Positions 12,001 through 31,019 of a DNA stretch of 33,442 nucleotides are shown piece after piece. The stretch comes from a virus, in the IMG/VR virus record IMGVR_UViG_3300036399_000593, positions 1 to 33,442 of that record; one strand, given 5' to 3'. The position numbers were made by a program, and so were the translations under genes. Under the pieces are notes generated by a model. The model was given only the letters and a program-made list of their open reading frames with translations. It made no database searches and had not been told where the DNA came from. Positions within the stretch are counted from its first letter, which is position 1. The number at the start of each line of letters is the position of its first letter.

Positions 12001-13164
12001 ATGGCAGATTTTTCTTTAACTACTGTCTTTGTAGTACCAGGTTTTCAGAGCTCATTGCCTGTAAATGGTAGCCCTACACAAGACTTAGCAGCTGGTGAAG
12101 TAGGTATTTTTGGTAGCAACTATGAAGCTACTGCAACCCCTAGTTCTTTTAAGTATTTTTACATTGCCCAAGGTAGAACAAACACGTATTTGCAAGGAAC
12201 AAAACGTTCTGATAAAATTGCAGGATGTGGTGGTGGATTTGGTGGATGTAACTCAAATGTAACTGAATGGTACAAAGTGACTGGATGTCCTACTCCTATT
12301 AACCAAATCACTGATGTTGATCAATGGAATGTAAAATGTGGTGACGTTGTAACTTTAACATTACGTGCTCACTCTTCTTACATTGACACATTGTACTTCA
12401 ATGGTTTCACTCGTTCAGTAACTGTACAAGCACCTTGTTGTGATTGTGGTGGTGATCCTTGTGACACTGTTGATGTTGATGCTTTGATTGATCAATTCAT
12501 TGTAAAATTAGAAGCACAAGCTCCTGGTATCAACCCTGATAACATTAGCTTCAACACATTCTTTACATTTGCAAATGTAGGTGGTACAATTTTACGTATT
12601 ACAGGAAAACCATTAACTAAATATGGTCAACCATGTGACGTTGCTGCGTTCCCATTTGAATATGACAGAATGTATTTCAGAACTTTTGTATACAATGGTC
12701 CTGCAACTACAGCTGACTTTATCGTAGCTGATAATTGTAACATTGTTGCTGAAGCTGTTGTTACACAAACATCTAACTATGCTAGAGGTACATCTGCAGA
12801 AATTGCTCAATTAGAGAAAAACTTCTACAGCTACCAAGCAGGTTACTTGAAACACTTATACAGAATGGCTGGTTACAATGGTAACTTTGAGTCTTGGGTT
12901 GTTGATGGTACAACTTATGATACTTTCTACATCAAATTTAATGAGCTAGACAAGTCTGCTTATCAATGGGGTGATTATATTCATGAAGATTCAATGGTGA
13001 TCCTTGCAGTTGCAACTGGTTCAGGTATTGGTAGCGATATTCAAGATGCGTTAGAAGATGCTCTTGGTGAAGCATACGATGATTCAGGAGTATGTCTTAC
13101 TACAACATCTACTACTACAGCAACACCACCAACAACAACGACTACTACTACTACTGCTCCATAA
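12001..13164 (+). CDS. Abundant-type virion protein with Thr C-terminal tail
   Basis: 387 residues, beta-rich, with cysteine clusters (GCGGGFGGC about 75-83; CCDCGGDPC about 144-152). It ends in a Ser/Thr tract finishing TTTTTTTTAP-stop. Regular codon use like the capsid gene suggests strong expression. By position it could be an auxiliary capsid protein or a tail/neck structural protein; I cannot decide between them. The C-terminal Thr tail is the same element used as an inter-module linker in the adhesins downstream. Here it is free, so it may be exposed on the virion as a mucin-like or glycosylated tail, or be a linker whose distal module was lost. Confidence 0.7.
   Translation: MADFSLTTVFVVPGFQSSLPVNGSPTQDLAAGEVGIFGSNYEATATPSSFKYFYIAQGRTNTYLQGTKRSDKIAGCGGGFGGCNSNVTEWYKVTGCPTPINQITDVDQWNVKCGDVVTLTLRAHSSYIDTLYFNGFTRSVTVQAPCCDCGGDPCDTVDVDALIDQFIVKLEAQAPGINPDNISFNTFFTFANVGGTILRITGKPLTKYGQPCDVAAFPFEYDRMYFRTFVYNGPATTADFIVADNCNIVAEAVVTQTSNYARGTSAEIAQLEKNFYSYQAGYLKHLYRMAGYNGNFESWVVDGTTYDTFYIKFNELDKSAYQWGDYIHEDSMVILAVATGSGIGSDIQDALEDALGEAYDDSGVCLTTTSTTTATPPTTTTTTTTAP
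13095..13161 (+). repeat. Poly-Thr coding tract (C-terminal)
   Basis: ACT/ACA/ACG/ACC codons in mixed order encode a Thr-rich tail interrupted by Ser, Ala and Pro. The mixture of synonymous codons argues that Thr is maintained at protein level rather than being a fresh triplet expansion. Confidence 0.8.
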
Positions 13165-13250: not shown

Positions 13251-13814
13251 ATGCCAACATTAAAGTTAGATTTCTTAGTAGTTCCTACATATAACACATT
13301 AACTCTTGGGGTGATAGATGCGTCTACATATCCTACAGATCCTCCTGTTGTCACATCTCCAACAATTGAAATAAATATTCCTGGATTTGATACTGCAATT
13401 CTTGCGTTTGATGTAAATAATTTTAATATCTTTACATCATCAAGTTTAGGCATTACTGCATCAGGTGTAAACCAACCTCTTCCTGATGGAGTTTATCATT
13501 TAAAATACTCTGTAGCTCCAGCATATGAAAACTTTGTAGAGAAAACAATTATTCGTGTTGATAGATTACAAGAAAGATTTGATGAAGCATTCATGAAACT
13601 TGAAATGATGGAATGTGATAGAGCAATTAGAACACAATCAAAAGTGGAATTAAGCTCAATATATTTCTTCATACAAGGAGCAATTGCAGCAGCAAACAAC
13701 TGTGCAATTGTCGAATCAAACAAACTATATAATCAGGCATCCATTATGTTAAATAATTTTAACAAAAACAATTGTGGTTGTTCTGGAAATAATTATGCAA
13801 TAAACTTTTATTAA
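13251..13814 (+). CDS. Putative connector/fibre-attachment protein
   Basis: 187 residues with two parts. Residues 1-100 are a beta-sandwich-like domain (LKLDFLVVPTYNTLTLGVIDASTYP; GVYHLKYSVAP). Residues 100-187 are helical (VDRLQERFDEAFMKLEMMECDRAI) and end with a Cys-containing tail (NNCGCSGNNYAINFY). It is followed at once by two very small genes and then the fibres. This trio looks like a unit for attaching fibres or completing the tail, by context only. No named family recognised. Confidence 0.65.
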   Translation: MPTLKLDFLVVPTYNTLTLGVIDASTYPTDPPVVTSPTIEINIPGFDTAILAFDVNNFNIFTSSSLGITASGVNQPLPDGVYHLKYSVAPAYENFVEKTIIRVDRLQERFDEAFMKLEMMECDRAIRTQSKVELSSIYFFIQGAIAAANNCAIVESNKLYNQASIMLNNFNKNNCGCSGNNYAINFY

Positions 13815-13815
13815 T

Positions 13816-13926
13816 ATGGCTGCTTGTGGAAATTGTGGGGCTAGTGTGGGCTGTGGATGCCAACTAAAGAATGGGTTATGTGGAAAATGTCAAAGTGCTC
13901 CTCCTAAACCCCAACCTAAAAAATAA
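13816..13926 (+). CDS. 36-residue cysteine-rich micro-protein
   Basis: ATG at 13816, one base after the preceding stop (TAATATG), 36 residues ending PPKPQPKK. It has seven cysteines in CGNCG, GCGC and CGKC patterns within the first 25 residues, so it probably forms a small zinc knuckle or disulfide knot, with a basic Pro-rich tail. It is tightly packed between two genes with 1- and 5-base gaps, and it is the only open frame filling that interval, which supports it as real. The function is unknown; by context it is a minor virion or assembly factor. Confidence 0.6.
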   Translation: MAACGNCGASVGCGCQLKNGLCGKCQSAPPKPQPKK

Positions 13927-13931
13927 TAATT

Positions 13932-14198
13932 ATGTTATCACCTAGACTAACCAATTGTCCAGAGTGTGCAAACATTCCTTCTCTGATTGCAGAGATTGAT
14001 TGTAAAATTGCAGATATGGCTAATAGCTTATACAACAATGTTGTATTCATGCTTAACCAATCTTTTGCAGGAAGTGTTATGTTTGATCTTTTAAACTATA
14101 AAAGAATCCTTACATACAAATATCATAATCCAAGTTATGCTAGTCAGTATTCTGTGAATATGATTGCTAGTAAAATTAAACTTTTAAAATTCAAATAA
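13932..14198 (+). CDS. Small helical protein before the fibre genes
   Basis: 88 residues. It starts MLSPRLTNCPECANIPSLIAEIDCKI with a CPEC motif, followed by helices (LYNNVVFMLNQSFAGSVMF; LLNYKRILTYKYHN) and a basic end KIKLLKFK. The hydrophobic middle is too interrupted for a confident membrane helix. Spacing of 5 and 1 bases to its neighbours shows it is part of the operon. It may form an oligomeric connector or fibre chaperone; not recognised. Confidence 0.65.
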   Translation: MLSPRLTNCPECANIPSLIAEIDCKIADMANSLYNNVVFMLNQSFAGSVMFDLLNYKRILTYKYHNPSYASQYSVNMIASKIKLLKFK

Positions 14199-14199
14199 G

Positions 14200-15339
14200 A
14201 TGTCTTGTACAAATTGCTTTAATGGGTGTACTGAAACTAATTCAGATCAATGTATTAGATACACAGGAGAAGATGTTCCTGCATTAGGCATTAGTCATGG
14301 TGATAGTCTTTTGGCTGTAGAGAATGCAATTACAACATTTCTTGTTCCTGTATTAACAGGAGAAGGAATTAAACCTATAGTTGATGAGAGCATTATTTGT
14401 AATGTAGTTAAACAGTTTCTTCCAACATGTACACAGTGTACAGGATTCACATTAAATGAAGTCTTAACAGCAATTATTAAAGCAGCATGTTTATTACAAG
14501 AACAAATAGATGATCTTGTTGCAGAATTTGAAGCTTTAAATGCTGATTATAATATAGATTGTCTTGATAGTGTAACAGCATCGTCTGGTACACATGACAT
14601 ACTTCAAGCTGCAATTGATAAAATTTGTGAGCTAGAAGTTAACCTTGGAGCATTAGCTCTTGATCTTGCTACAAACTATTATACTAAAGCACAGGTTGAT
14701 GCAGTTGTCGCAAATTACGTCCCACCTGGTTCAAATTTAGTTAAGAATAAAATGATTCCCTATGTAGCTGTTCCATTTTTTGCTACAGACTTATCAATGT
14801 TTGATCCTACAGGCGCAGGCATAGGTGATTGGATTGATATTTATTTATGTGTTGGATCTAGTAGTAATTCACAAGTACCAGATATACGAGGAAGAGTTCT
14901 TGTTGGAGTTACAACAAATGTTCCAGGAGGACCAATGGATCCAGATGTTGTTCCTAATATGGGAACAGGTGGATTTAATCCTGCGTATACAATAAATACT
15001 ATATATGGAAGTAACAGTATAACACTTGGTGTTACACAAATGCCTACGCATACACATATTATAGATGTAATAAATCCTCCACATAGTCATTTTGTAGCTG
15101 CAGTACAAGGAGGAACATTATCATATCCTGCAAATCCTATCAATCCTATAACATCATATGTAGATTATTCTGATACAGGTAGTTATAGATTTTCATCATC
15201 TTCTCTTCCAGCAACAGTAGGACCAACATCAGCTACTACCACTGCAGTAACTGCAACTGCTCAGAATACAGGAAATGGGCTTCCTCATTCAAATATACAA
15301 CCTGTAATTGCTTGTAATTATATAATATATATACCTTAA
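14200..15339 (+). CDS. Collar-type tail fibre, paralog 1
   Basis: 379 residues. Residues 1-80 are a Cys-bearing N-terminal adaptor starting MSCTNCFNGC with the motif SDQCIRYTG (type A, shared by four genes here). Helical stalk segments follow (LNEVLTAIIKAACLLQEQI; about 85-170). The C-terminal half has hallmarks of phage tail-collar/short-fibre domains: VPDIRGRVLVGV (226-237), paired HTH (284-286) and HSH (295-297) motifs, and a final LPHSNIQPVIACNYIIYI. In T4 short fibres similar HxH histidines bind metal in the trimer axis. It probably trimerises and contacts the receptor. It has a tandem paralog just downstream. Confidence 0.8.
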   Translation: MSCTNCFNGCTETNSDQCIRYTGEDVPALGISHGDSLLAVENAITTFLVPVLTGEGIKPIVDESIICNVVKQFLPTCTQCTGFTLNEVLTAIIKAACLLQEQIDDLVAEFEALNADYNIDCLDSVTASSGTHDILQAAIDKICELEVNLGALALDLATNYYTKAQVDAVVANYVPPGSNLVKNKMIPYVAVPFFATDLSMFDPTGAGIGDWIDIYLCVGSSSNSQVPDIRGRVLVGVTTNVPGGPMDPDVVPNMGTGGFNPAYTINTIYGSNSITLGVTQMPTHTHIIDVINPPHSHFVAAVQGGTLSYPANPINPITSYVDYSDTGSYRFSSSSLPATVGPTSATTTAVTATAQNTGNGLPHSNIQPVIACNYIIYIP

Positions 15340-15349
15340 TTTTATTAAT

Positions 15350-16456
15350 ATGTCTTGCACAAATTGTTATAATGGTTGCGCTGAGATTGTTTCTGATCAA
15401 TGCGTTAGATATACAGGGGTCGATGTACCTCTATTAGGTATTCACAATGGTGACACTCTTCTCACTGTTGAGAATGCAATCATTTCATTTGTTACACCTT
15501 TTCTTGATGGATCAGGTATAAAACCTATTATTGATCCAGATATAATATGTGATGTAGTTAGACAGTATATTCCTACGTGTGTAGAATGTAATGGATTTAA
15601 CTTGAATGATGTATTGTCAGCAATTATAAAAGCTACATGTAATCTTCAAGAACAAATAGACGCTATTGTAGCAGAGCTTGCAGTATTAAATGCACCTTAT
15701 GATAGTGACTGTTTAGTACTTTCTCCAAATGCAGATACACATACTATTGTACAAGCTGTAATAAATAAACTTTGTGAAGTAGAAGCTGACCTTGCTATAT
15801 TAGCATTAGATGTTTCTACAAATTATATTAGAATTGATCAAATCAATAACTACATTGCTGCATACATTAATAGTAGTACAAGCGATTTAGTAAATGCTAA
15901 AATGATTCCATTTGTAGCATTAGAGTTCTATGGTGATTTAATTGGTAAGTTCGATGCTACTGGTGCAGGTATTGGAGCATGGAAAGATATTAATTTATGT
16001 AATGGAAACAATAACACTCCTGATAAACGAGGTAGAGTTGCTGTTTGTGCAATAACAGATATGGGTGGTGGTCAATTGGATCCAGAAGTAGATCCTGCAG
16101 TAAATCCATCATTTAATCCTAATTATGTAATAAATGATAATAGTCATGGTGTTAATTTTATAACACTTAATGAATTTCAATTACCTAGTCATGCACATAA
16201 TAATACTGTTTTTACAGCATTGGAACAAACACCACATACACATGGTTTGACAGGAGGTGTAGTTATGTTTGGTGGACCTTATGGATTAAATTATGCTAGT
16301 GACTTTGCTTTCTTTGCAAAATATGATACAGATCCACAACTTGCTAATATAACAGTAAATACTACAATAAATAATGCTTACACAGGTGGTAATCTACCTC
16401 ATTCAAATATCCAACCAGTTTACCCTTGTTATTATATAATGTATATACCAACTTAA
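15350..16456 (+). CDS. Collar-type tail fibre, paralog 2
   Basis: 368 residues, homologous over its full length to the previous gene: same MSCTNCYNGC start, type A adaptor SDQCVRYTG, helical middle, and collar core PDKRGRVAVC. It also has HAH and HTH metal-type pairs (QLPSHAHNN; TPHTHGL) and the end LPHSNIQPVYPCYYIMYI. The adaptor and stalk are best conserved, while the tip loops between the histidine pairs and the C-terminus differ, as expected for receptor-specificity divergence. The two could form a heteromeric fibre or give alternate receptor binding. Confidence 0.8.
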   Translation: MSCTNCYNGCAEIVSDQCVRYTGVDVPLLGIHNGDTLLTVENAIISFVTPFLDGSGIKPIIDPDIICDVVRQYIPTCVECNGFNLNDVLSAIIKATCNLQEQIDAIVAELAVLNAPYDSDCLVLSPNADTHTIVQAVINKLCEVEADLAILALDVSTNYIRIDQINNYIAAYINSSTSDLVNAKMIPFVALEFYGDLIGKFDATGAGIGAWKDINLCNGNNNTPDKRGRVAVCAITDMGGGQLDPEVDPAVNPSFNPNYVINDNSHGVNFITLNEFQLPSHAHNNTVFTALEQTPHTHGLTGGVVMFGGPYGLNYASDFAFFAKYDTDPQLANITVNTTINNAYTGGNLPHSNIQPVYPCYYIMYIPT

Positions 16457-16458
16457 TT

Positions 16459-18408
16459 ATGTGGCCATATTTACCTCAAAACCCATGTGGGTGTGACTCT
16501 TGTGAGAGTTCTAATGAATCAACAACAAACGTTGGATCAGATAACGTAAGATATATTGGAGAACCTTTAGCTTGTACAGGGATTGAACCTTGTGACACGC
16601 TCACTGTTGCTCTCCAGAAAATTGATAATGCAGTTTGTAATATATTTGATATACTAGATGTATGTTGTACAAATATTACAACTACCACTACTACAAGTTC
16701 TACAACAATTTGTCCTTGTACTACATATGGATATGTTGGACCAAGATTCGATCCTGGTACAATTACATATGTAGAATGTAATACATTAGAGCCAATTACA
16801 GACACTGCATCTAGCACTGTACAATTTGCTTGTATTGATAATAACTATCCAATCATAGAAATTGGTTCAATTAATGTTATAGATACACAAGATTGTTGTT
16901 CAAACATTACAACTACCACTACAACTGCTGTTCCAGTAAATCCATTTTGTTATGAAGTTACAGCTGTAAATAGATGTACTGTTTATTGGACTGATGCAAA
17001 TGGTGATCCTCAATCACAAAACCTTACAAATGCTACAATAAACATTTGTGCTGACGAAGATTCTATTGCAAGTTCTTGTGGTGGAGGTGGAGGTATTTCT
17101 ATAACTGGAGGAACTGTTGCTTGTACAAATGATGCAATGTGTCAACCTACAACTACAACCACTACAACAATAGCTTGTAATTGTATTACATTTAATAATA
17201 CAAGCAGTAGTGCAATAGATATTCTTATTGGATATAATGATTGTATTGGAGAGTTTGTTGAAGATTTTATTTCTGCAAATGATGTATTACAATTTTGTGG
17301 AAGTGGTGGTATAGCAGCTAGTGAATTAGTAATAGTAACAACTGGAGGAGCTTGTATTGCTGAAGTGTGTCCTACAACCACTACCACTACAACAGCTACT
17401 CCATTAGCATGTGTATCTTATTTATTACAAAGTACAGGTGCTGGTGGAGCAAGTAATGAATGGGAAGCATTTGCTTGTAATTCAAACATTGCAGTGAGTG
17501 GAACAATTCCTTTCCCTGGAACAATGGAAACTGGATGTATTACAGAAGGTTCATTATTACTTGGTGCTAATTTAGAAGTTGTTTCTGATGCACCTTGTGA
17601 AGAAGTTAGTTGTGAAGCATTTGAAATACAAGGACTTTCTCCTGTAGGATCTTGGGATGCAATTGATTGTTCTGGAAATAGAGTTGGTGAAGTTGCTCCT
17701 AGTGGTGTCACTGTTCCTACAGGATGTATTATTCCTAATACATTAGTTTTAGATAATGCATATATAAAAAATTATCTTGGACCATGTGGTTCAACTACTA
17801 CCACCACTACATTAGTTCCACCTACCACTACGACAACGACAACTCCTGTTCCTACAAGTTTTAGATATTTTTTCTCTAACGCTGCAATCTCAGGAACATT
17901 AGCATGTGCTCAAATAACGTTCCCAATAGTTTTATATTCAGACGATGCAACTCTTAATTTAGGATCTTTCTTGTACACAGACATGGCATTGACCACTCCT
18001 TTCATAGGAGCTGCAAGATGGTATCAAGAATCTACAAGTGGTATATCTTTTGCTATTCTTAATAGTGGTGAAATTGCTGGTGAATTTAATTGTGCGCCTA
18101 CAACCACAACTACAAGTACAACATTGTTTCCACCAACTACAACAACCACTACAACTGTTGTAAATTTTAGTCATGGACTTTCTGCAGGAGAAACAAACAA
18201 TATATTAGCTTGTCTTGAAACAGTTGCAGCAATAACAGTGTATACAAGTGTTCCTACAATAGTTTTTGGGACTGTTGTATACACTGATCCAACACTAACT
18301 ACTACATTTAATGGAGGAGGAGTATCAGTGTATTATAAAAATTTCTCAGTAGGCAATTGTATTAGAATTAATGGTTCTGGACAAGTTTTCACTACTTTCT
18401 CTTGTTAA
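16459..18408 (+). CDS. Multi-module adhesin with poly-Thr linkers
   Basis: 649 residues from the ATG two bases after the previous stop; a TTG further upstream would overlap that gene. Cys-rich start (NPCGCDSC), type A adaptor at 27-70 (SDNVRYIG...CTGI...ICC-like end), then a string of ~60-100-residue beta modules separated by seven-Thr linkers, usually flanked by Cys. The modules include an NPFCYEV module also found in the gene at 28391, two tandem W[ED]A...C...TGCI repeats, and two tandem YTD..LTT.F.G repeats at the C-terminus. The architecture resembles a mucin-like surface adhesin; likely a virion fibre binding host or environmental glycans. No enzymatic motif. Confidence 0.75.
   Translation: MWPYLPQNPCGCDSCESSNESTTNVGSDNVRYIGEPLACTGIEPCDTLTVALQKIDNAVCNIFDILDVCCTNITTTTTTSSTTICPCTTYGYVGPRFDPGTITYVECNTLEPITDTASSTVQFACIDNNYPIIEIGSINVIDTQDCCSNITTTTTTAVPVNPFCYEVTAVNRCTVYWTDANGDPQSQNLTNATINICADEDSIASSCGGGGGISITGGTVACTNDAMCQPTTTTTTTIACNCITFNNTSSSAIDILIGYNDCIGEFVEDFISANDVLQFCGSGGIAASELVIVTTGGACIAEVCPTTTTTTTATPLACVSYLLQSTGAGGASNEWEAFACNSNIAVSGTIPFPGTMETGCITEGSLLLGANLEVVSDAPCEEVSCEAFEIQGLSPVGSWDAIDCSGNRVGEVAPSGVTVPTGCIIPNTLVLDNAYIKNYLGPCGSTTTTTTLVPPTTTTTTTPVPTSFRYFFSNAAISGTLACAQITFPIVLYSDDATLNLGSFLYTDMALTTPFIGAARWYQESTSGISFAILNSGEIAGEFNCAPTTTTTSTTLFPPTTTTTTTVVNFSHGLSAGETNNILACLETVAAITVYTSVPTIVFGTVVYTDPTLTTTFNGGGVSVYYKNFSVGNCIRINGSGQVFTTFSC
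16927..17148 (+). repeat. NPFCY module, copy 1
   Basis: About 74 codons between two Thr tracts: NPFCYEVTA, a Trp-Asp turn, Gln-rich strand, TINICA, then ITGG and a CT.D..C end. Matches in order and spacing the module at 29891-30118. The similarity is clear in protein but diverged in DNA, so the duplication or transfer is old. Confidence 0.7.
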
Positions 18409-18426
18409 TATTTTAAAGCTAAACTT

Positions 18427-19386
18427 ATGAGTATTCTTAATTGTATAGACACTGGTTCTTGTTCAACACAAATTACTAAATCTGATTTAGTAACATATAT
18501 TGGACTAGATCTATTGTGTACAAATATCCAAACATCAGAAGATCTCACTGAAGCTCTTGTAAAAATAGAAGAACGTATTTGTAGTATAACAGACAGTTTA
18601 AATGTCTGTTGTCCTACAACTACTACAACTAGTAGTTCTACTACAACTACTACAACTACTGAATGTCCTTGTCCAACAACAACGACTACTACTACAGCAA
18701 CACCAACAACAACTACTACTACTAGTTCTACTTCAACTAGCACAACTAGTACAACTAGCACAACTAGTACATCAACTACTACAAGTACAAGTACAAGTAC
18801 CACTACAACAACTACTACTACAGAATTACCAACAGTATTGATTTGTGAACAACGTTGGACAACTAGAAATTTGGATGTAACTACATATAGAAATGGTGAT
18901 CCTATTCCAGAAGTAAGTGATCCTGTTGCATGGGCTGCACTTACTACAGGTGCTTGGTGCTATTACAACAATGACCCTGCTAATGAAGCTATTTATGGAA
19001 AATTATATAACTGGTATGCTGTAACAGATCCAAGAGGATTACCTCCTATAGGATATCATATACCAACTGAAGCTGAATTTGATCAATTAGAAACTTGTTT
19101 AGGTGCTACTGCTGGAGGAAAATTGAAAGAAATTGGAATATCTCATTGGGCTAGTCCTAATGTAGGAGCAATTAATAGTACTGGTTTTACTGGTCTCCCA
19201 GGTGGGGAACGTTTTCCAGATGGAACATTTCTTGGACTTACACTTCGTGCATTCTTTTGGACAAGTACAGTGTTCTTTCCACCATATATTTATTATCATT
19301 CATTAAACTATAATAGTAGTGCTCTTGCATATGGAAGTGATGGAACTGTAAAATATGGAATGTCTGTTCGATTAGTAAAAGATTAA
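18427..19386 (+). CDS. FISUMP-domain adhesin on a Thr/Ser stalk
   Basis: 319 residues in three parts. Residues 19-60 are a type A adaptor (SDLVTYIG...CTNI). Residues 64-132 are an almost pure Thr/Ser stalk with one ECPCP break. Residues 139-319 match the FISUMP domain (Fibrobacter succinogenes major paralogous domain): ICEQRWTTRNLDVTTYRNGD, YGKLYNWYAV (190-199), GYHIPTEAEFDQL, GGKLKEIG, GFTGLPGGER, FFWTST and the end GMSVRLVKD. FISUMP domains are typical of Bacteroidota surface lipoproteins and are probably binding modules, so this is most likely a receptor-binding tip acquired from a host genome. Confidence 0.85.
   Translation: MSILNCIDTGSCSTQITKSDLVTYIGLDLLCTNIQTSEDLTEALVKIEERICSITDSLNVCCPTTTTTSSSTTTTTTTECPCPTTTTTTTATPTTTTTTSSTSTSTTSTTSTTSTSTTTSTSTSTTTTTTTTELPTVLICEQRWTTRNLDVTTYRNGDPIPEVSDPVAWAALTTGAWCYYNNDPANEAIYGKLYNWYAVTDPRGLPPIGYHIPTEAEFDQLETCLGATAGGKLKEIGISHWASPNVGAINSTGFTGLPGGERFPDGTFLGLTLRAFFWTSTVFFPPYIYYHSLNYNSSALAYGSDGTVKYGMSVRLVKD
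18616..18822 (+). repeat. Long Thr/Ser stalk tract with minisatellites
   Basis: About 69 codons encoding nearly only Thr and Ser. Within it, four tandem 9-base units ACTAG[CT]ACA at 18736-18771 (encoding Thr-Ser-Thr) and three ACAAGT units at 18781-18798 are near-perfect at DNA level, suggesting recent expansion by slippage or unequal recombination, so stalk length may vary between relatives. Confidence 0.8.
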
Positions 19387-19403: not shown

Positions 19404-20234
19404 ATGACAGTATTAATAACATTAACAACAGCAGGATCTGACTCAGGTCCATTTAACCTATACTCAGATGTAGATGGATTTTTATCAGCATTTGAAGTGG
19501 GAGTTGCTAAAATAGATTTATTAGCAGGATATTCTTCATCATTGGTTCCTGACCCAACAACAATTATTAGAGTTATGTCTAGTAATTTTTTGTGTACTAA
19601 TTATATTGATTTAGAATTATATCCTGTAACTACAACAACCACTACAACATTACCATTAGAGTTTTTATTAAGTTACGAATGTGATGGTGAAACAGTAATT
19701 CAAATTACAGCAGACACAATCACTGGAGGTGCGCCAGGTTATTACCCAGCAACTACATTCTTCTATGATGAAGCTTCTGCTCTTGCAAATACAAGTTGGT
19801 CAGCATTTTCAATTGAGTCTATTAGTTATGGTACTAGTGAACCTAATAATACATTCTGGGTAGCAATCATAGATTCAGCAGGAAACGTTGCTGTTAATAG
19901 TATAACTACTAATTGTACAACTACAACAACTACTACAGCACCACTTGATTTTGTATTAACATCTAGTTGTGCTGGAATAAATGCAACACTTAGCATGAGT
20001 GCTTACACTGGAGGATCAGCACCTTATGAATCAGGAAATAATTATTTTACAAGTGAGGCAGCTGCATTAGCTAATACATCTTGGGTTGGACCACCATCAG
20101 GAGCATTTGCAATAGGAATAGGATCTACACCAGGAACTTATTGGATGGTTATTAGAGATTCATTAGGAAATTTAAAAGCTAAAGACATAACTGTAGATTG
20201 TTCAACAACTACAACTACAACTACAATACCTTAA
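19404..20234 (+). CDS. Two-repeat adhesin with type B adaptor and Thr tail
   Basis: 276 residues. The N-terminal ~70 are the type B adaptor (VLITLTTAG..SGPF...LLAG...), shared with the gene at 30153. A Thr linker follows (about 77-83), then two tandem ~95-residue beta repeats, each with L[ED]F, TGGxAPY or similar, EA.ALANTSW and IxDSxGN. They are separated by a Thr linker, and the chain ends STTTTTTTIP-stop. The fold is probably Ig-like; likely a virion surface or fibre component. It is the last gene before a strong tandem terminator. The ATG is preceded by TAAACCAATAATAAA and no Shine-Dalgarno. Confidence 0.75.
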   Translation: MTVLITLTTAGSDSGPFNLYSDVDGFLSAFEVGVAKIDLLAGYSSSLVPDPTTIIRVMSSNFLCTNYIDLELYPVTTTTTTTLPLEFLLSYECDGETVIQITADTITGGAPGYYPATTFFYDEASALANTSWSAFSIESISYGTSEPNNTFWVAIIDSAGNVAVNSITTNCTTTTTTTAPLDFVLTSSCAGINATLSMSAYTGGSAPYESGNNYFTSEAAALANTSWVGPPSGAFAIGIGSTPGTYWMVIRDSLGNLKAKDITVDCSTTTTTTTIP

Positions 20235-20411: not shown

Positions 20412-21620
20412 ATGCTTGACAATCAACAATTACTGAATCAGTTGAAGGATATGCTTCGCTGGAAAAAAAGCAAGAGTTACTATGCAAAGTCTTTAGGAAT
20501 TTCTGTATATGAAGTAGATCAACTTCTTTTACAGTTAAGTCATGACAAAAGACCTAAACTACTATCAGATAAAACAATCAAGGTTGATGTTGAAAGAGGA
20601 ACATTAGAAAGCGTAGTAATATGCGATCATGAACCCAAAGACGATCTTGAACTTGCAGCATTACATAAGATAGATCTTGATAAATATATAATTACCAACT
20701 ACTGGTCTAAGCTTTTACCAAATGGTAAGTTTACATCTTCAGTTTTTTCTAAACGAAAAGGACCAAAAGATTACAACCCTGAAGACTTTGCCAAGTTTTT
20801 AGAAAACTACAAACCAAACAACATTACAATTACTCCTGTTGATCATAGCAAAGAGAAAGATTATGTTGACATTGAGGTGTCAATCTCTGATTATCACTTA
20901 GCTAAACGACATGTAGACGAGGATAACAATCCTGTTGAAAGAGCTTACAGATATTTTAATGTGGCTCAATCTTTGATTAAAAAAGTTGCATCTGTATATA
21001 ACATAAACACTATAGTGTTTCCTATTTCGAATGACTTTTTCCATACAGACAATTACCAAAACCAAACTACACAAGGAACTCCACAAGACACTATATTAGA
21101 TTATAGTTCTGAATATGAGTTAGGATTCTCAATACTTGTAGACACAATAAACATGTTGAGATTTTATTCAAGTAATGTTGATGTAATACTTGTTCAAGGA
21201 AATCACGACAGGACTAAATCCTTCTATTTAGCACATGCATTAGAAGTGTATTTCAAACGTGAACTTGATGTTAAGTTTGATAGAGAACATAGTGTTGTAA
21301 AAGGTAAGACGTTAGGAGATACATTTATTGGATGGCATCATGGTAATTGTAAGTTAGAAGACCTTCCACTATTATTTGCCACACATCCTAAATATAGTCA
21401 AGCATTTGGTAATGCTAAATATAGAGAAGTGCACACAGGAGATAAGCATCACTATATGGCTAAAGAAGTCAAAGGTGTAAGAATACAACAAATGCCTAGC
21501 TTGTCTGGAACAGACAGATGGCACTTAGATAATAACTACGTACATTCAGTACGTGCAGCTCTTGCTTTAGTTTATGATAATAAACTAGGAAAAATAGCAG
21601 AGTTTGAAACTCGAATATAA
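20412..21620 (+). CDS. Calcineurin-like metallophosphoesterase
   Basis: 402 residues. Residues 10-45 resemble a helix-turn-helix (SYYAKSLGISVYEVDQLLLQL). The C-terminal ~250 residues carry the ordered metal motifs of the Mre11/SbcD-type superfamily: D160-Y-H162, N207-D208 in place of the usual GD, GNHD (263-266), WHHG (H309, H310) and HTGDKHH (H341, H346). The family hydrolyses phosphodiesters with two metal ions; this one may process DNA. A metallophosphoesterase placed among structural genes recurs in phages of Bacteroidota, so it could be a virion-associated or assembly-linked nuclease. First gene of the second late unit. Confidence 0.82.
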   Translation: MLDNQQLLNQLKDMLRWKKSKSYYAKSLGISVYEVDQLLLQLSHDKRPKLLSDKTIKVDVERGTLESVVICDHEPKDDLELAALHKIDLDKYIITNYWSKLLPNGKFTSSVFSKRKGPKDYNPEDFAKFLENYKPNNITITPVDHSKEKDYVDIEVSISDYHLAKRHVDEDNNPVERAYRYFNVAQSLIKKVASVYNINTIVFPISNDFFHTDNYQNQTTQGTPQDTILDYSSEYELGFSILVDTINMLRFYSSNVDVILVQGNHDRTKSFYLAHALEVYFKRELDVKFDREHSVVKGKTLGDTFIGWHHGNCKLEDLPLLFATHPKYSQAFGNAKYREVHTGDKHHYMAKEVKGVRIQQMPSLSGTDRWHLDNNYVHSVRAALALVYDNKLGKIAEFETRI

Positions 21621-23765: not shown

Positions 23766-26700
23766 ATGGCAGACGATAAACTTGAAAAAATTAAGAAACT
23801 ACTCAGTGGTGATCAAAGTGATGTTAACCAAGAGTATAATGTAGCATCTATAGGAATGAACTTAGATAACACTGTTAGTCAAGTTCCTAAAGGAATGCTT
23901 ACTTATGCATTGAATGCTTCTCTTGAGAACTTTGATGCTAACTCTGTAAACTATCAGAATGAACCAGGAAATGAACCATGCTTTAATAACAATGCTGAGT
24001 TTTTTCCTGCTAATTACATATTGATTGGTACACATCTTATTCAAGAAAAAAATAAACATATATTCTTTCTTACTAATCCTTCAACAGGTGAGTCAGAGAT
24101 TGGATACATGGACAATAATGATTGTAACTATCATGTGTTTATTAGTGCACCTTGTCTTAATTTTGACATTGATTATCCTATACACAAAATTGTACACAAG
24201 ATAACTAACTGTAGTACAGAGATATATTGGACAGATGGATTCAATCCTAGAAGATATTTGGATCTTGACCCTCTTAAAATTCCATATACATTAGCACAAA
24301 GTTCTACTTTTTGTGATCCTAATTATACAAGCCAAATAGATTGTAATCAATTAAAATTACAACCTAATTTTTCTATTCCTGAATTAACTATTGTAGATGT
24401 TATAACAGGGGGGGACCTAACTGCAGGTACAGTGCAGTTTGCAATTCAATATTGTGATGCATCAAGTAATCCTTACACATCATATTATTCAGTTACAAAT
24501 CCTACACCTATTGCAAATGCTCGTGTTACAGATGTTAACTTTAACTATCCTGTTGGAAAATCAGTTGTAGTTGGAATTAATAATCTTGATGCTACAGGAC
24601 AGTTTCAATATTTCAACTTAGCTGTAATTAAAACAGTAAATGCTATTTCATCAGTAGAACTAATAGGTACATACTTCATTGATAATGTAATAATGAGCAT
24701 TACATATAGTGGTCAAAATAAAACAAACATTAGACTTTCTACAGCTGATATTTTTGAAAAGTTTCCTCATTACGAAATAGCACAAGATCTTACATCTGTA
24801 CAAGATATTCTTGTATGGGATAATCTTACATCTATAGATAGAATTAACTACCAATCTATTGCAAGTAAAATAAGATTTCAATGGGAGACATATAGAATTC
24901 CTTCTAATGAAAACTATTCAGATGAATTAAATGCTACAAACTTACGTGGTTATCTACGTGATGAAGTGTATGCATTTGAAATTGTATTCTTATTAAAGAA
25001 TGGAAAACAAACAGATGGTTTTCATATCCCTGGAAGACAAAGAAATAATAATGAGTCTTTTCCAGATGTACCTGACACAAGTCCTGATTTTATAGGAACT
25101 CCTGAATACATTGACCCTCTTACAGGAGTTGGATATAGCCCTTATTGGAAAATATATAATACAGGTAGCGTAGTTGGAATTGGTACAGGGCTACCTATAG
25201 AAAATGCAACACCACACGAATATGGTGATTTTGCATATTGGGAATCAAAAGAAAAATACCCATGTAACGATGCTTTATGGGGAGATCTTGCAGATCAACC
25301 TATCAGACATCATAAGTTTCCTGATGTTCTTGTTAGTCCTATATTTGAAAGTGCTACACCAGTAATTACTGCTAATAAATATAAAGTAGAAATGCAAACA
25401 TCAGATGCTGTATTTCCTATTGGTGTAAAAATTAATATTAGTCAAGTTACGCAATTAATTCAACAATCAAATTTAACAGAAGATCAAAAAGCTGACATTG
25501 CTGGATTTAAAATTATAAGAGGAGACAGAGGAACAAATAAATCAATTGTTGCTAAAGGTATTCTTAGAAATCTTAATTTATACGAAAGAGAAAAACAAAC
25601 TTTTTATTTCCCCAATTACCCATATAATGATCTTAGTGAAGATCCTTTCTTACTTACAGCTAATAATGCATATTCACAATTAGCTGAACCTTGGGTAGTT
25701 ATGTGTACAGAAATTGATCCTGAAACAGAACCAGGTGGTTCATTATATAATCCTGCTGATCCTGATCCTAGACCATATGGAACTTATGAATATACAGATC
25801 CTAATACAAATAAAACTTTTACAGAAAGAATGTATTTGAATGAAATAAAAGAATTTTGTTCAAATAGTAGACCTTTTTTTGTTACAGGTAAAGCATATAT
25901 AGGTCCTGGAAACTATGATGTATATAAAGTAAGAAGTAGAGGATGTAAAGGTTTTCGTGTAAACTGGTCAAGTCCTTATACACTTGATAACACAGCGTTA
26001 GATCCACAAGGTCCATGGTTAGATGGATGGAGTGCTGTGGAATTTAATCTAACCAATGTACTTGTAGGTCTTCTTGTAGTACAAGTATTACCTTTTGCTT
26101 TTCTTGGAATTGAAGCTGTTGTTATTATAGGAGGAATAGTAGTAGATGGTGGTAGAGCATTATATGCCACTGTTGCTGTAGGTGGAACTGTTAGTACTGC
26201 ATGTAGAAATAGATGGTATGATATAGCATGTAAATGTAGTGTAGGACAAGAATATATTCCACCCATTGGTGAATCTCCTAGAGGAGTTATTGATTTTACT
26301 CGTTCTAGAAGATCTAGTGTTAAGTGTGGTGAAACAACTCAACTTCCTGCTATAACAACTGATGCATCAAAATACAGACATGTGTTTAATTCTCCTGAGA
26401 CATCTTTTGGACAACCTTTCTTAGGTAATGTTCTTAAGTTAGAGAACGTAATGTATGGAGCAGGTACTGGACATTTTGTTGCAGTTAATAAGAATGCTAA
26501 GTATAAACTAATTTCAAAAGAGGCTCAAGAAGATGCATTGCGTAGTTCTGATGCTATAGCAAGAATGACTGATCCTTTTAATTTTACTGCTACGTTTACA
26601 GCATATCAGGCATATTTAACTATTTATATAAATGGTATCACAAGAAAGAACTATGCATATTCATTTAATTCAATTGCTAGTTATGATTATTATGGAGATA

Positions 26701-28385
26701 TTGAAAATAATCCAGCATTAGCAATTAAACAACGTAATATTGATATTACACAATATCTTATTCCAGGAGTACAATCTGTAGGAGATAATCATAATATTAA
26801 TAATTTTAATAGAGAATCTTCTGTATTTATAAAAACTATAGAAGATAGAAATACCACTATTACTGTTCCACCTTTATTGTTTCCTAATGACGTTCCAAGC
26901 ATTAGCATAAATGGATCTCCTGGTATTAGCGACTATTCAAGATATACAATTACTAGTTCAGATCGTTGTATTACTCCTGCAGAAGAAAAAGATGATGTAA
27001 CAGTAGTATCTTATTATGCTTCAATGAAAAATGTATTTGATAACCAATGGGGACAAATATATTCTTATGAAACAGTTGATACAGGTTTTCAAAAAACAGT
27101 TCCATTTACAGGAGTGTCAACTGCCACTATATTTGGAGGTGATACATTCATTTCTAGATTTGCATTTAAAACAAAACTTCCATACTTTATTGATAACAGA
27201 GTGGGAGCTCCTGATGATTCAGAGATATTCTATGATGAGATTGGTAACATAGCCTATCCAAAGTACTGGCACTCAGCACGTTCTGTATTATCAGATTTTA
27301 GTCTTGATAATGGAGTTGTAATGACAAACATAGTTTCAATCAAAGCACATAATTTTGATTGCCCTAATGATCCTTCTAAAGTACCTACAGGAAGTGAGAG
27401 TTCTTATAGAACCTATTATGATGGGTATTTTTATTTATTTGCATATGGAGTTCCTAACTTCTATTGTGAGAGCTCTTACAATTTAGATTTGCGTCAAGCA
27501 TTCAATAATAGAGAAGGTGACTTCTGGCCACATGTTAGTACTAGTATTCCTGATGATTGGGTACAAGAAAGTTTTGTTCCAATTTCTCAAGATAATACAT
27601 ATTATTATAATACAACTTTTTCTAAACAGAATAAAGAGAATTACTTCACACACTTACCTCCTGATTGGACAGAACAACTGTGTTATACAAACTATCCATT
27701 CAGAGCAATATACTCAGATCCCCAAACCACAAATGCTGATAACAGAGTTAATAACTGGTTGACGTATAGAGCAACTGCAATGTTTGACTTTCCTCAGAAT
27801 TATGGAAGTCTTACAGCATTAGATGGTATTCAGAATAAAGCTATTTTAGCTAGATTTGAAAACAAGTCATTGTTATATAATACATTGCTTACAATTAACA
27901 CAAGTAATCCACAAGCAGCATATATAGGAAACGATACATTGTTTAAACAATCCCCTCCTATTGACTTTGCTGAAACAGATCTTGGATATGTAGGAAGTCA
28001 GAATAAGTTCTTGTTGAAGATTCCACAAGGACAAATTACTGTTGATGCTAAACGTGGACAAGTGTTTCTTGTTAATAGTAATCAAGCTACAGATCTTTCT
28101 GCATTTGGCACAGGAATGAATAGATTCTTTACAGACCATTTAGCATTTGAGATTCTTAGATATTTCCCTGAAGTAAATACAGATAATCATTTCACAGGAA
28201 TTGGTTTACATGGAGTGTATGATTCTAAATTTGATAGAGTTATTATTACAAAACTTGATTATATTCCTATAGACAAAGATGTGAAATATGATGCTGATAA
28301 AAGAGAGTTTTATATAGAGACAGTGCAGCATATTCCAGATGCTACAACAACATCAACAACTTCTACTACTACAATAATATCTTAA
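23766..28385 (+). CDS. Giant tail (stabilisation/muzzle-like) protein, main part
   Basis: 1539 residues, the largest gene here, beta-rich and aromatic throughout. It starts ADDKLEKIKKLLSGD. Features such as VPKGMLTYALNASLENFD near the N-terminus and repeated short beta blades are what I associate with the crAss-like tail stabilisation/muzzle protein. Residues 765-793 form a strongly hydrophobic 29-residue segment followed by a Cys-rich ACRNRWYDIACKC. It ends in a Thr tract (TTTSTTSTTTIIS), and the next two genes seem to continue the same ancestral protein (see findings). Probably located at the tail tip, with a role in sealing or DNA ejection. Name inferred, not searched. Confidence 0.7.
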   Translation: MADDKLEKIKKLLSGDQSDVNQEYNVASIGMNLDNTVSQVPKGMLTYALNASLENFDANSVNYQNEPGNEPCFNNNAEFFPANYILIGTHLIQEKNKHIFFLTNPSTGESEIGYMDNNDCNYHVFISAPCLNFDIDYPIHKIVHKITNCSTEIYWTDGFNPRRYLDLDPLKIPYTLAQSSTFCDPNYTSQIDCNQLKLQPNFSIPELTIVDVITGGDLTAGTVQFAIQYCDASSNPYTSYYSVTNPTPIANARVTDVNFNYPVGKSVVVGINNLDATGQFQYFNLAVIKTVNAISSVELIGTYFIDNVIMSITYSGQNKTNIRLSTADIFEKFPHYEIAQDLTSVQDILVWDNLTSIDRINYQSIASKIRFQWETYRIPSNENYSDELNATNLRGYLRDEVYAFEIVFLLKNGKQTDGFHIPGRQRNNNESFPDVPDTSPDFIGTPEYIDPLTGVGYSPYWKIYNTGSVVGIGTGLPIENATPHEYGDFAYWESKEKYPCNDALWGDLADQPIRHHKFPDVLVSPIFESATPVITANKYKVEMQTSDAVFPIGVKINISQVTQLIQQSNLTEDQKADIAGFKIIRGDRGTNKSIVAKGILRNLNLYEREKQTFYFPNYPYNDLSEDPFLLTANNAYSQLAEPWVVMCTEIDPETEPGGSLYNPADPDPRPYGTYEYTDPNTNKTFTERMYLNEIKEFCSNSRPFFVTGKAYIGPGNYDVYKVRSRGCKGFRVNWSSPYTLDNTALDPQGPWLDGWSAVEFNLTNVLVGLLVVQVLPFAFLGIEAVVIIGGIVVDGGRALYATVAVGGTVSTACRNRWYDIACKCSVGQEYIPPIGESPRGVIDFTRSRRSSVKCGETTQLPAITTDASKYRHVFNSPETSFGQPFLGNVLKLENVMYGAGTGHFVAVNKNAKYKLISKEAQEDALRSSDAIARMTDPFNFTATFTAYQAYLTIYINGITRKNYAYSFNSIASYDYYGDIENNPALAIKQRNIDITQYLIPGVQSVGDNHNINNFNRESSVFIKTIEDRNTTITVPPLLFPNDVPSISINGSPGISDYSRYTITSSDRCITPAEEKDDVTVVSYYASMKNVFDNQWGQIYSYETVDTGFQKTVPFTGVSTATIFGGDTFISRFAFKTKLPYFIDNRVGAPDDSEIFYDEIGNIAYPKYWHSARSVLSDFSLDNGVVMTNIVSIKAHNFDCPNDPSKVPTGSESSYRTYYDGYFYLFAYGVPNFYCESSYNLDLRQAFNNREGDFWPHVSTSIPDDWVQESFVPISQDNTYYYNTTFSKQNKENYFTHLPPDWTEQLCYTNYPFRAIYSDPQTTNADNRVNNWLTYRATAMFDFPQNYGSLTALDGIQNKAILARFENKSLLYNTLLTINTSNPQAAYIGNDTLFKQSPPIDFAETDLGYVGSQNKFLLKIPQGQITVDAKRGQVFLVNSNQATDLSAFGTGMNRFFTDHLAFEILRYFPEVNTDNHFTGIGLHGVYDSKFDRVIITKLDYIPIDKDVKYDADKREFYIETVQHIPDATTTSTTSTTTIIS

Positions 28386-28390
28386 ATATT

Positions 28391-30148
28391 ATGTCAACAA
28401 ATAATGATAATACAATACCAGTAGTAACAAGAACACAGGTCTATCTTACAGATCCTGAATTCTTCTGTAATAAGTCTTGGACTATTTCATATAATATGAA
28501 TACCAATAGTTGGATTTCATTTCACAGCTATATTCCTAATTGGTATATGGGTGAAAATAATTTCTTCTATTCAGGAATCAATGGCTGTTGTGATGATTTT
28601 GATTCTAATTTTATTGCATTTGTAGGTGATACAAATAAACCAACAACCTCTACAACTACCACAATTCCAACTAGACCAAATTATACAACCACTATAAGAT
28701 ATGTTCCATCATGTGATTTAGTGGGTGAAGCTACAGAACTGTTTTGTGAATTGGCTGGTGAAGTTGTAATTACAGTTTCAACAACAACAACAACTACAAC
28801 TTGTACACCACCTGATAATTTATTTACATATACTTTATATGCTGGATATCAATATGGTAGTGGTATGCCAATTGATTCAACATCAAGTTTGAATGATATG
28901 TGTAATGCTATGGCAATCATTAGACTTGGTAATCCATCAATCAGTGCTGTAACAATTAATGGTTATGCATTTAGTCTTGATGTTTTACAACTTGTTTATG
29001 ATAATCAATTTTCTAGTTGTACATTTATTCCTGATGGATATTATTACACATTAGAAAGCTTATCTGATGGATATGGATATTATGTAACTGATGGATACAT
29101 TGCTAGATTAGTAGATTGTAATTGTGGAACTACAACTACCACTACCACAATTGCACCAACAGTAGGAGAATGCTGTGGACTTTTATTTAGTGCAGCAGAT
29201 AAAATTTATGTTCTCAATGATGATGATAATCCTATAACAGAAGTAATTGTACCAGGATATGTAAGTGGATATGGAATAGCTATGACAGCAAATAAATTCT
29301 GGTCTATTGATACACAATTTATTGAATGGGATATAGCACTGTCTCCATTTAGCGCAATCTTTAATAGAAACATCACTTTCCCTGGAGGATTTACAACATC
29401 ATCAGGGATGGTGGCAATTGATGATGTAACATTAATTACAATTGATGATTCAACAACTCCTCAAGATGTAATAGAAATGGATGTTACAGGACTTGCAGGA
29501 GTTGCAACTATAATGTTTAGTTTACAAACTGATAGAGTTGCAATAGGAAACATGTTGTATACAACAGAAGCTAAACTTATTATAATCAATCAGGATGTAA
29601 CTACATCAGATTATTACATTACACAATATGACTATCCTACATCAGTGATCGAAATAGATTTAAATGTTGGAACGTCTTATGATCTTGTAACATTATCAGA
29701 ATGTAATTGTATTATATTTGCAGGAGATACTTCTGGAAACTTATATGCTGTAGATGAATTACTGTCAGGTATATTAATTCCTATATTTGGTACAGGGCTT
29801 ATTCTTGAATCAGCTACACAAGTAGCAAGTTGTGTTCCACAGTCACTTAATAGTAATGGTAATAATATAACTACAACTACAACAACTACAGTGTTTGTTC
29901 CAAATCCATTCTGTTATACTATCACTGTATCTGGCAATGGATCAGCTACGTTCACTTGGATAGATTATTTAGGAGTGGGACAATTCCAAACATTGGTTAA
30001 TGAAACAATTTACATATGTGCACAACTCAATACTATTGATGGAGAAACAACTGGAGAAGCTATAGTTACTCTTACAGGAGGAATAACTTCTTGTACATCT
30101 GATGGAGATTGTACACCCACAACAACAACAACAACAACTATTCCTTAA
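28391..30148 (+). CDS. Tail-protein middle fragment fused to Thr-linked modules
   Basis: 585 residues, five bases after the giant tail gene in another frame. Residues 12-70 (RTQVYLTDPEFFCNKSW; NSWISFHSYIPNWYMGENNF; GINGCC) look like a continuation of the giant tail protein core. After that come unrelated modules separated by Thr tracts: a short CELAG module, a ~110-residue Tyr-rich module, a ~230-residue beta module with propeller-like character (LLFSAADKIYVLNDDDNP; SGNLYAVD), and a C-terminal NPFCY module homologous to one at 16927. It ends PTTTTTTTIP-stop. Likely a tail-tip adhesion component. Confidence 0.7.
   Translation: MSTNNDNTIPVVTRTQVYLTDPEFFCNKSWTISYNMNTNSWISFHSYIPNWYMGENNFFYSGINGCCDDFDSNFIAFVGDTNKPTTSTTTTIPTRPNYTTTIRYVPSCDLVGEATELFCELAGEVVITVSTTTTTTTCTPPDNLFTYTLYAGYQYGSGMPIDSTSSLNDMCNAMAIIRLGNPSISAVTINGYAFSLDVLQLVYDNQFSSCTFIPDGYYYTLESLSDGYGYYVTDGYIARLVDCNCGTTTTTTTIAPTVGECCGLLFSAADKIYVLNDDDNPITEVIVPGYVSGYGIAMTANKFWSIDTQFIEWDIALSPFSAIFNRNITFPGGFTTSSGMVAIDDVTLITIDDSTTPQDVIEMDVTGLAGVATIMFSLQTDRVAIGNMLYTTEAKLIIINQDVTTSDYYITQYDYPTSVIEIDLNVGTSYDLVTLSECNCIIFAGDTSGNLYAVDELLSGILIPIFGTGLILESATQVASCVPQSLNSNGNNITTTTTTTVFVPNPFCYTITVSGNGSATFTWIDYLGVGQFQTLVNETIYICAQLNTIDGETTGEAIVTLTGGITSCTSDGDCTPTTTTTTTIP
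29891..30118 (+). repeat. NPFCY module, copy 2
   Basis: About 76 codons bounded on both sides by Thr tracts; NPFCYTITV, a TW.D turn, TIYICA, LTGG and CTSDGDC in the same order as the module at 16927-17148. Diverged in DNA sequence. Confidence 0.7.
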
Positions 30149-30152
30149 TGAT

Positions 30153-31019
30153 ATGTCAAAGGTTATAACAATACGATTAACAACTGCTGGAGCAGGGACT
30201 GGACCATTCACGATCACAGATCAGTTTGGTAATGTTATAGCTACAAACGTTTCCAAAAAATCATTGATGGCAGGAATTAGTTATGTAGTTGATAATGTAG
30301 TTGACATAATAACAATTGAATCTACAGGAAAATGTAAATTAAAAAAATCATTCACTCTACAATCAATTACTAGAACTGACTATGCAGCTTTAACATATAC
30401 ACAATCTACTAGTGCATGTCTATGGAGACATCTTACTGACATACATACATATAACTACTATTATGGAAAAATAGAACCATACATTATCGAATACCCTTTT
30501 ACATATCAATACCAAGATGAGATCTTACAGAATGTAAAAGATTACACCAAGGCATATGAATACATTCCTATTCCTGATGGTGTATTTAGTTACAATACAA
30601 AAGTTGAAACAAACGATAAATGGTTCAACAAAGCTATTCTATATAATGGACAACAAAGCTCAGGGTTATTAGAACTTGTAGCAAAACCAATAAATAACTT
30701 ACAAGCATACAACTTATATCCTATCTTTAACACTAATAGTAAAACTATCACTTATACTAAGAGTGATAACTTCTATCAGTATAATACATTCTGGGCATTG
30801 CAGAAGAGTTCTCAGATTCCATTATTCAACACGTCTTGTGAAAGCCTTTCAATTGATAAGGTGATTAATCAATCTAACATGGACTATGGATCTAGATCAT
30901 TTAAGAAAGCTACCCTTAGAGCAAAAGAACTTAAGGTGAGACACATCTTAGATAACTCTGCAACAGTACACTTAGTTAGTCAATTCATAATAGCTCCTGC
31001 TATGATAAGCTATAAATAA
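30153..31019 (+). CDS. Tail-protein C-terminal fragment with type B adaptor
   Basis: 288 residues. Start set at the ATG five bases after the previous stop; an in-frame ATG at 30102 lies inside the previous gene's Thr tract. Residues 3-70 are the type B adaptor (VITIRLTTAG..TGPF...LMAG...), homologous to the N-terminus of the 19404 gene. Residues 85-288 (CLWRHLTDIHTYNYYYG, IIEYPFTYQYQDEIL, FNKAILYNGQQSSG, YTKSDNFYQYNTFW, RSFKKATLRAKELKVRH) match what I recall as the highly conserved C-terminal part of the crAss-like tail stabilisation protein. It therefore seems to be the third piece of a split protein, capped with an adaptor. Confidence 0.7.
   Translation: MSKVITIRLTTAGAGTGPFTITDQFGNVIATNVSKKSLMAGISYVVDNVVDIITIESTGKCKLKKSFTLQSITRTDYAALTYTQSTSACLWRHLTDIHTYNYYYGKIEPYIIEYPFTYQYQDEILQNVKDYTKAYEYIPIPDGVFSYNTKVETNDKWFNKAILYNGQQSSGLLELVAKPINNLQAYNLYPIFNTNSKTITYTKSDNFYQYNTFWALQKSSQIPLFNTSCESLSIDKVINQSNMDYGSRSFKKATLRAKELKVRHILDNSATVHLVSQFIIAPAMISYK

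Follow-up and report, generated by a model that had tools for sequence, protein, structure and literature searches.

Anchors and tips in described phages, and the Crassvirales window

Conserved anchors with exchangeable tips are already well known (PMC6872550, PMC11414711). In T7/K1F and Klebsiella phages, anchor-based receptor-binding proteins have a conserved N-terminal anchor and an exchanged C-terminal receptor-binding part, and the anchor, about 140-160 residues long, usually exists once, on the first protein (PMC6872550). In the branched TSP1-4 complex of Ackermannviridae, up to four receptor-binding proteins combine conserved N-terminal parts with variable tips, and tip recombination has been observed; T4 gp10-like XD domains are used, and the N-terminal domains differ between spikes (PMC11414711). 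In ΦcrAss001, gp38 and gp39 (THA and THB), encoded just before R2, build a ring of 12 hubs on which the tail fibres dock via the fibre N-terminus; gp22 is attached in this way and bears further fibre proteins (PMC10172136).

The window analysed here is the whole of a 33.4 kb virus record (33,442 nucleotides). It was found to be a fragment of Crassvirales with core crAss-like virion genes (Table 1). The crAss-type major capsid protein, terminase and portal were recognised by PF23898 (E 3e-27 for the capsid protein) together with phrog_11589, phrog_6681 and phrog_6547. The gene order of ring proteins and muzzle known from gp32-gp44 is present, since the profiles of 11244, 21623, 22837 and 23766 match crAss001 gp34, gp40, gp43 and gp44. 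Four fibre genes, all complete, closely packed and on the same strand, lie between 13932 and 19404. Gene 20412, between the fibre genes and R2 and within the virion block, is DNA-repair exonuclease-like (phrog_704, E 6e-50), and it is found at the same place in most relatives whose contigs extend there.

Table 1. Genes and N-terminal modules of the window (genes are named by their first position; a single number is a gene start)
Feature	Position	Strand	Description	Basis
2442	2442		terminase
4463	4463		portal
8491	8491		major capsid protein
10246	10246		ΦcrAss001 gp33 homologue
11244	11244		ΦcrAss001 gp34 homologue, R4
12001	12001..13164		protein ending in a Thr run
13251	13251..13814	+	candidate tail-hub protein, THA/gp38-like: beta-sandwich and helices, C-terminal NCGC motif	gene order, hhalign, model
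13816	13816..13926		small Cys-rich ORF
13932	13932..14198	+	candidate second hub protein (THB/gp39 position)	position and size
14200	14200..15339	+	tail fibre: module, helical rod, collar-type (T4 gp10/gp37-like) tip	PHROG 8763/8469, PDB profile search, model
module of 14200	14242..14343	+	residues 15-48
15350	15350..16456	+	full-length paralogue of 14200, collar-tipped	48% identity over 385 columns; PHROG 8763
module of 15350	15392..15493	+	residues 15-48
16459	16459..18408	+	fibre/adhesin: module, then small domains of unknown family split by Thr runs
module of 16459	16537..16638	+	residues 27-60; similarity extends to residue 70, base 16668
18427	18427..19386	+	fibre/adhesin: module, Thr/Ser stalk, FISUMP tip (residues ~138-318)
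module of 18427	18481..18582	+	residues 19-52; similarity extends to residue 62, base 18612
19404	19404..20234	+	fibre-block gene: third unrelated N-terminal anchor and Thr-run domains
20412	20412..21620		exonuclease-like gene
21623	21623		ΦcrAss001 gp40 homologue, R2
22348	22348		ΦcrAss001 gp42 homologue
22837	22837		ΦcrAss001 gp43 homologue, R1
23766	23766..28385		ΦcrAss001 gp44 homologue, muzzle
28391	28391..30148		gene after the muzzle
30102	30102..31019		stretch resembling the N-terminus of 19404

The four fibres of the window share with the first two of these systems the combination of a conserved N-terminal part and a varying C-terminal part, and with ΦcrAss001 the hub-type genes just before R2, the presence of further fibres and, probably, attachment by the fibre N-terminus, but differ in several respects. 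Their anchor is a module of about 45 residues, unrelated in sequence to the T7/K1F and Klebsiella anchors and repeated in tandem genes, and their tips are found on other anchors as well. One such small module is present on all four proteins, with no XD-like domain recognised, in contrast to TSP1-4. The genes follow hub-type genes, whereas ΦcrAss001 gp22 is encoded far off beside the portal and has an N-terminus unrelated in sequence.

The shared N-terminal module and the four tips

The consensus of the module is SDxVxYxGpxLpcxGIxxxDxLTxxxxKID. The first-pass annotation had proposed an N-terminal motif shared by all four genes, and it was indeed found in each of them, with SD at residues 15, 15, 27 and 19. 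The literal form SDxx[RT]YxG fits 16459 and 18427, but the collar genes read SDQC[IV]RYTG, with one residue more between SD and Y. The ATG start of 16459 is backed by a start, MWP[YF]LPQN, that is conserved in relatives, while an alternative TTG start at 16426 would overlap the preceding gene.

Strong pairwise similarity was seen in two of the six comparisons, 14200 with 15350 and 16459 with 18427 (50% identity over 50 aa), and the similarity across the pairs is weak in single-sequence alignments (z 2.3-5.5). Relatives were collected by viral-contig searches (L003-L083, later L086-L109). Iterated profiles recruited one another and were excluded as proof; non-iterated HMM and profile-profile tests were used instead. 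A non-iterated HMM of 50 collar-gene N-termini matched 28 non-collar ORFs among 2664 at E<0.1, 27 of them on the coding strand, while none of 2664 reversed and none of 13320 locally shuffled decoys reached this threshold. The similarity between independent collar and adhesin profiles, on which the earlier proposal had been made to depend, is present: hhalign gave a score of 45.6 over 45 columns (probability 96%, P 2.1e-9), compared with 21.0 for the best of 200 column-shuffled decoys. Sequence comparison thus confirmed that the collar-gene and adhesin-gene N-termini are homologous and that the shared module is real.

In a diverse alignment of the module, the Y is invariant and the G, D and L are nearly invariant. 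The module has no match in Pfam (E up to 0.01), NCBIfam (E up to 0.1) or PHROG (0.01). Among isolated phages, single-sequence tblastn at E 0.1 found only Cellulophaga phages, and a consensus query added only chance-level matches (E 4-7), for example to Mycobacterium tape measures. A single scan of genomes of bacteria and archaea with the consensus, which probes distant relatives little, confirmed no relative.

Behind the module, the tips were said to differ. However, 14200 and 15350 are paralogues throughout, with 70% identity over residues 1-60, 52% over 61-180 and 45% over 181-379. Thus, there are three tip types among the four genes, not four. The collar-type C-terminus, of the T4 gp10/gp37 kind, is borne out by PHROG 8763 (2e-12) and 8469 (1e-10) and, by sequence, by the tail fibre PDB 9qgo (3e-4) and T4 gp10 (2fkk, 0.03). 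With regard to the trimeric metal-binding fold of such tips, its His pairs 284/286 and 295/297 are invariant. The model of 14200 has a mean pLDDT of 69 and is poor at the tip, and in the low-confidence single-chain model of the collar tip, T4 gp37 and gp10 are found among weak fold matches only. The FISUMP tip of 18427 also stands, as the whole domain matches PF09603 (E 8.5e-37, 127.7 bits against a curated cut-off of 33.9) and TIGR02145 (E 7e-20, 72.4 against 41.65). On the other hand, the Ig-like array that had been assigned to 16459 found no backing in Pfam or NCBIfam; the only family match of its small domains in a PHROG search is phrog_21885, of unknown function.

Position of the module genes and the likely attachment site

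In the relatives, the order of the locus is constant: R4, a 12001-like gene, a 13251-like gene, a 13932-like gene, optional 19404-type genes, one or more collar-module genes, other module genes, 19404-type genes, R2, R1 and the muzzle. Since the loci were retrieved for their similarity to the fibre block of the window, they are not a random sample. Each of the 33 non-identical complete blocks has one to four module copies, and 32 of them are led by a collar-module gene. Within the loci fetched, no module was found outside the interval from 13251 to R2, and its place in the protein is always N-terminal.

Among isolated phages, the searches found the module in Cellulophaga phages of Lightbulbvirus. 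Cellulophaga phi17:2 gp048 (E 5e-7) and, more weakly, gp047 (E 0.0025) begin with the module and are encoded directly before R2. Their phi4:1 counterparts, gp047 and gp046, have the same starting sequences, and both are annotated in the record as virion proteins by MS/MS. As in the window, the module is N-terminal and the genes are adjacent before R2; unlike in the window, the C-terminal parts are different ones, with neither a Thr stalk nor a FISUMP domain, and the second protein is weakly similar.

The module is probably the N-terminal virion-attachment domain of tandem tail-fibre or receptor-binding proteins, most likely seated on the tail hub. This reading is suggested by the conservation of the anchor while the tips change, by tips that are recognisable fibre or adhesin parts, and by a homology between collar and non-collar modules that exceeds the decoy controls. 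It is also suggested because the module is always N-terminal and encoded between the hub-like genes and R2, because the ΦcrAss001 hub genes in that position dock fibre N-termini (PMC10172136), because 13251 weakly resembles gp38, and because phi4:1 gp047 and gp046 are annotated as virion proteins. In this arrangement, the module would seat each fibre on the tail-hub collar round the R1/R2 rings, the place of ΦcrAss001 gp22. The part after the module, either a helical rod with a collar tip or a Thr stalk with small domains or FISUMP, would reach the host surface and may bind it there, presumably as an oligomer.

The candidate hub genes were compared with gp38 and gp39. In hhalign, 13251 scored 27.3 against gp38, with a maximum of 21.6 in 150 shuffles; the match covers the C-terminal 64 columns only (P 0.002-0.003) and includes the C-terminal NCGC-G end. 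Among the virion proteins tested, gp38 is the best match of 13251. A scan of viral contigs with gp38 gave three loci, all close to crAss001, which are too few for a deep gp38 profile. The predicted beta-sandwich and helices of 13251 have a pLDDT of 88, and Foldseek had only FnIII/Ig-type sandwiches, and no hub structure, among the matches listed. Profile comparison of the 13932 family with gp39 gave no sequence similarity; thus, the THB assignment is a positional guess. The absence of a hub structure from the listed Foldseek matches and of similarity between 13932 and gp39, together with the weak module membership of phi17:2 gp047, weigh against docking on the hub, and so does the lack of a match between the module profiles and the N-terminus of ΦcrAss001 gp22. 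A small Cys-rich ORF of 36 residues (MAACGNCGASVGCGCQLKNGLCGKCQ...), 13816, lies between the two hub-like genes.

The target of the module could be the hub, another fibre or the module itself. The main rival is a branched arrangement, as in branched tail-spike complexes, in which the module joins one fibre to another: contact with the hub would be limited to the collar fibres 14200 and 15350, and the Thr-stalk proteins would hang on them. The leading position of the collar-module gene in nearly all blocks would fit such a junction, as would the further fibre proteins borne by gp22 and the frequency of branched complexes among phages with several receptor-binding proteins. However, the collar fibres have the same module and would need another anchor, none of which was seen before the module, and L082 retains a module gene without the collar body. 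The junction is considered unlikely. It is still less probable that the module attaches the proteins to the capsid as head fibres. The short N-termini of the ΦcrAss001 head fibres do dock in capsid pockets, and 12001, two genes upstream of 13932, is at the position of an auxiliary capsid protein; but ΦcrAss001 encodes its head fibres gp21 and gp29 at another place, close to the portal and lysis genes, while the block with the module is flanked by hub-like genes and ring genes and its tips are of tail-fibre types. Finally, a chance or compositional similarity of short Cys-rich starts, to which the weak single-sequence cross-pairs might point, was rejected as very improbable, since no decoy attains the observed scores in the HMM and profile-profile tests and L082 has a collar-module chimera.

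Docking on the hub remains the preferred reading. The module is best read as the anchor domain of interchangeable tail fibres and as a new family, of a kind that is itself known. In environmental Crassvirales, most of which are uncultured, receptor-binding proteins are difficult to identify, as their tips vary. A short conserved anchor at a fixed gene position is a practical marker for Crassvirales fibres and their tips, and hints at the site of fibre attachment in a clade without a solved virion. The anchor family, its use in tandem genes by environmental Crassvirales and the occurrence of common tips on several unrelated anchors appear to be new: subscription journals and preprints aside, no description of any of these was found among the titles and abstracts retrieved.

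Exchange of tips on several anchors

As judged from gene sequences, the tips behind the module have been replaced, shortened or extended in close relatives while the module stays 65-94% identical. The relatives of 16459 have N-termini with 76-94% identity and lengths from 141 to 649 residues; some short homologues end at contig edges, but those of L017 (149 residues) and L018 (141 residues) do not. The relatives of 18427, 65-89% identical at the N-terminus, have extra domains or another tip. In L082 and L083, a collar-type module is joined straight to a Thr tail.

The first-pass annotation had suggested one docking site on the virion for interchangeable receptor-binding proteins. The module is homologous and the C-termini are exchanged, but the docking site may or may not be a single one, and exchange is seen on other anchors too. 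In relatives, Thr stalks and tips, FISUMP among them, have been added to 13932 homologues; thus, 13932 is a second anchor type. The 19404 anchor is amplified in relatives, where it bears FISUMP or other tips. FISUMP tips are found on all three anchors, and interchangeability is not tied to the module alone. L007 and L030 share 374 bases of DNA at 92% identity, which belong to a domain of the 16459 homologue in the former and to the end of a 19404-type gene in the latter, while in the same phage pair (L008, L031) the backbone nearby is 69-77% identical and the capsid-gene side 89.5%. Since the L007 and L030 genes recur in the separate contigs L008 and L031, misassembly is unlikely. A 430-residue tip with 72% identity is present on a module gene of L030 and a 13932-type gene of L043. 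Within the window, 16459 and 28391 have a 70-residue domain in common, and the last domain of 28391 is 40% identical to one of 16459.

Recombination at or near the Thr-run linkers would swap the tips and leave the anchor fixed, and the Thr-run DNA (repeat families D2 and D4) may give the short homology for crossovers. The chances seem about even that a common pool of tips is spread over several anchors of the virion that are unrelated to one another (the SD-Y-G module, the hub-position protein 13932, the N-terminus of 19404 and perhaps the muzzle-associated protein 28391) with Thr-run DNA as the crossover site. If so, a given tip could be transferred from one site of the virion to another, and the exchange of the same tips between anchors would go beyond the customary view of a single anchor whose tips are swapped.

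Some further features of these genes were observed. The long repetitive tip found on two anchors (L030:9141-10886 and L043:5541-7196) has GDTSDLPR-type repeats and is leucine-rich-repeat-like by eye. The start of 28391 resembles the muzzle-type PHROG phrog_37948 (residues 15-64) and is followed by Thr runs and fibre-gene domains; this gene may be a detached muzzle end that serves as a further tip carrier. Gene 30102 resembles the N-terminus of 19404 (40% identity over 42 residues, E 6e-4) and may be a 19404-type anchor that was copied to a site beyond the fibre block. The proteins of 12001, 19404, 23766 and 28391 end in a Thr run and 0-3 residues before the stop, and Thr-run C-termini likewise occur on many short module proteins in relatives (L041, L056, L074, L082). 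Such proteins might be sockets in which no tip is mounted, or what is left after a tip was lost. In L050 (9139-13761), a protein of 1541 residues has long Gly-Thr-Ser-Gly repeats behind the module, which are collagen-like and take the place of the Thr stalk.
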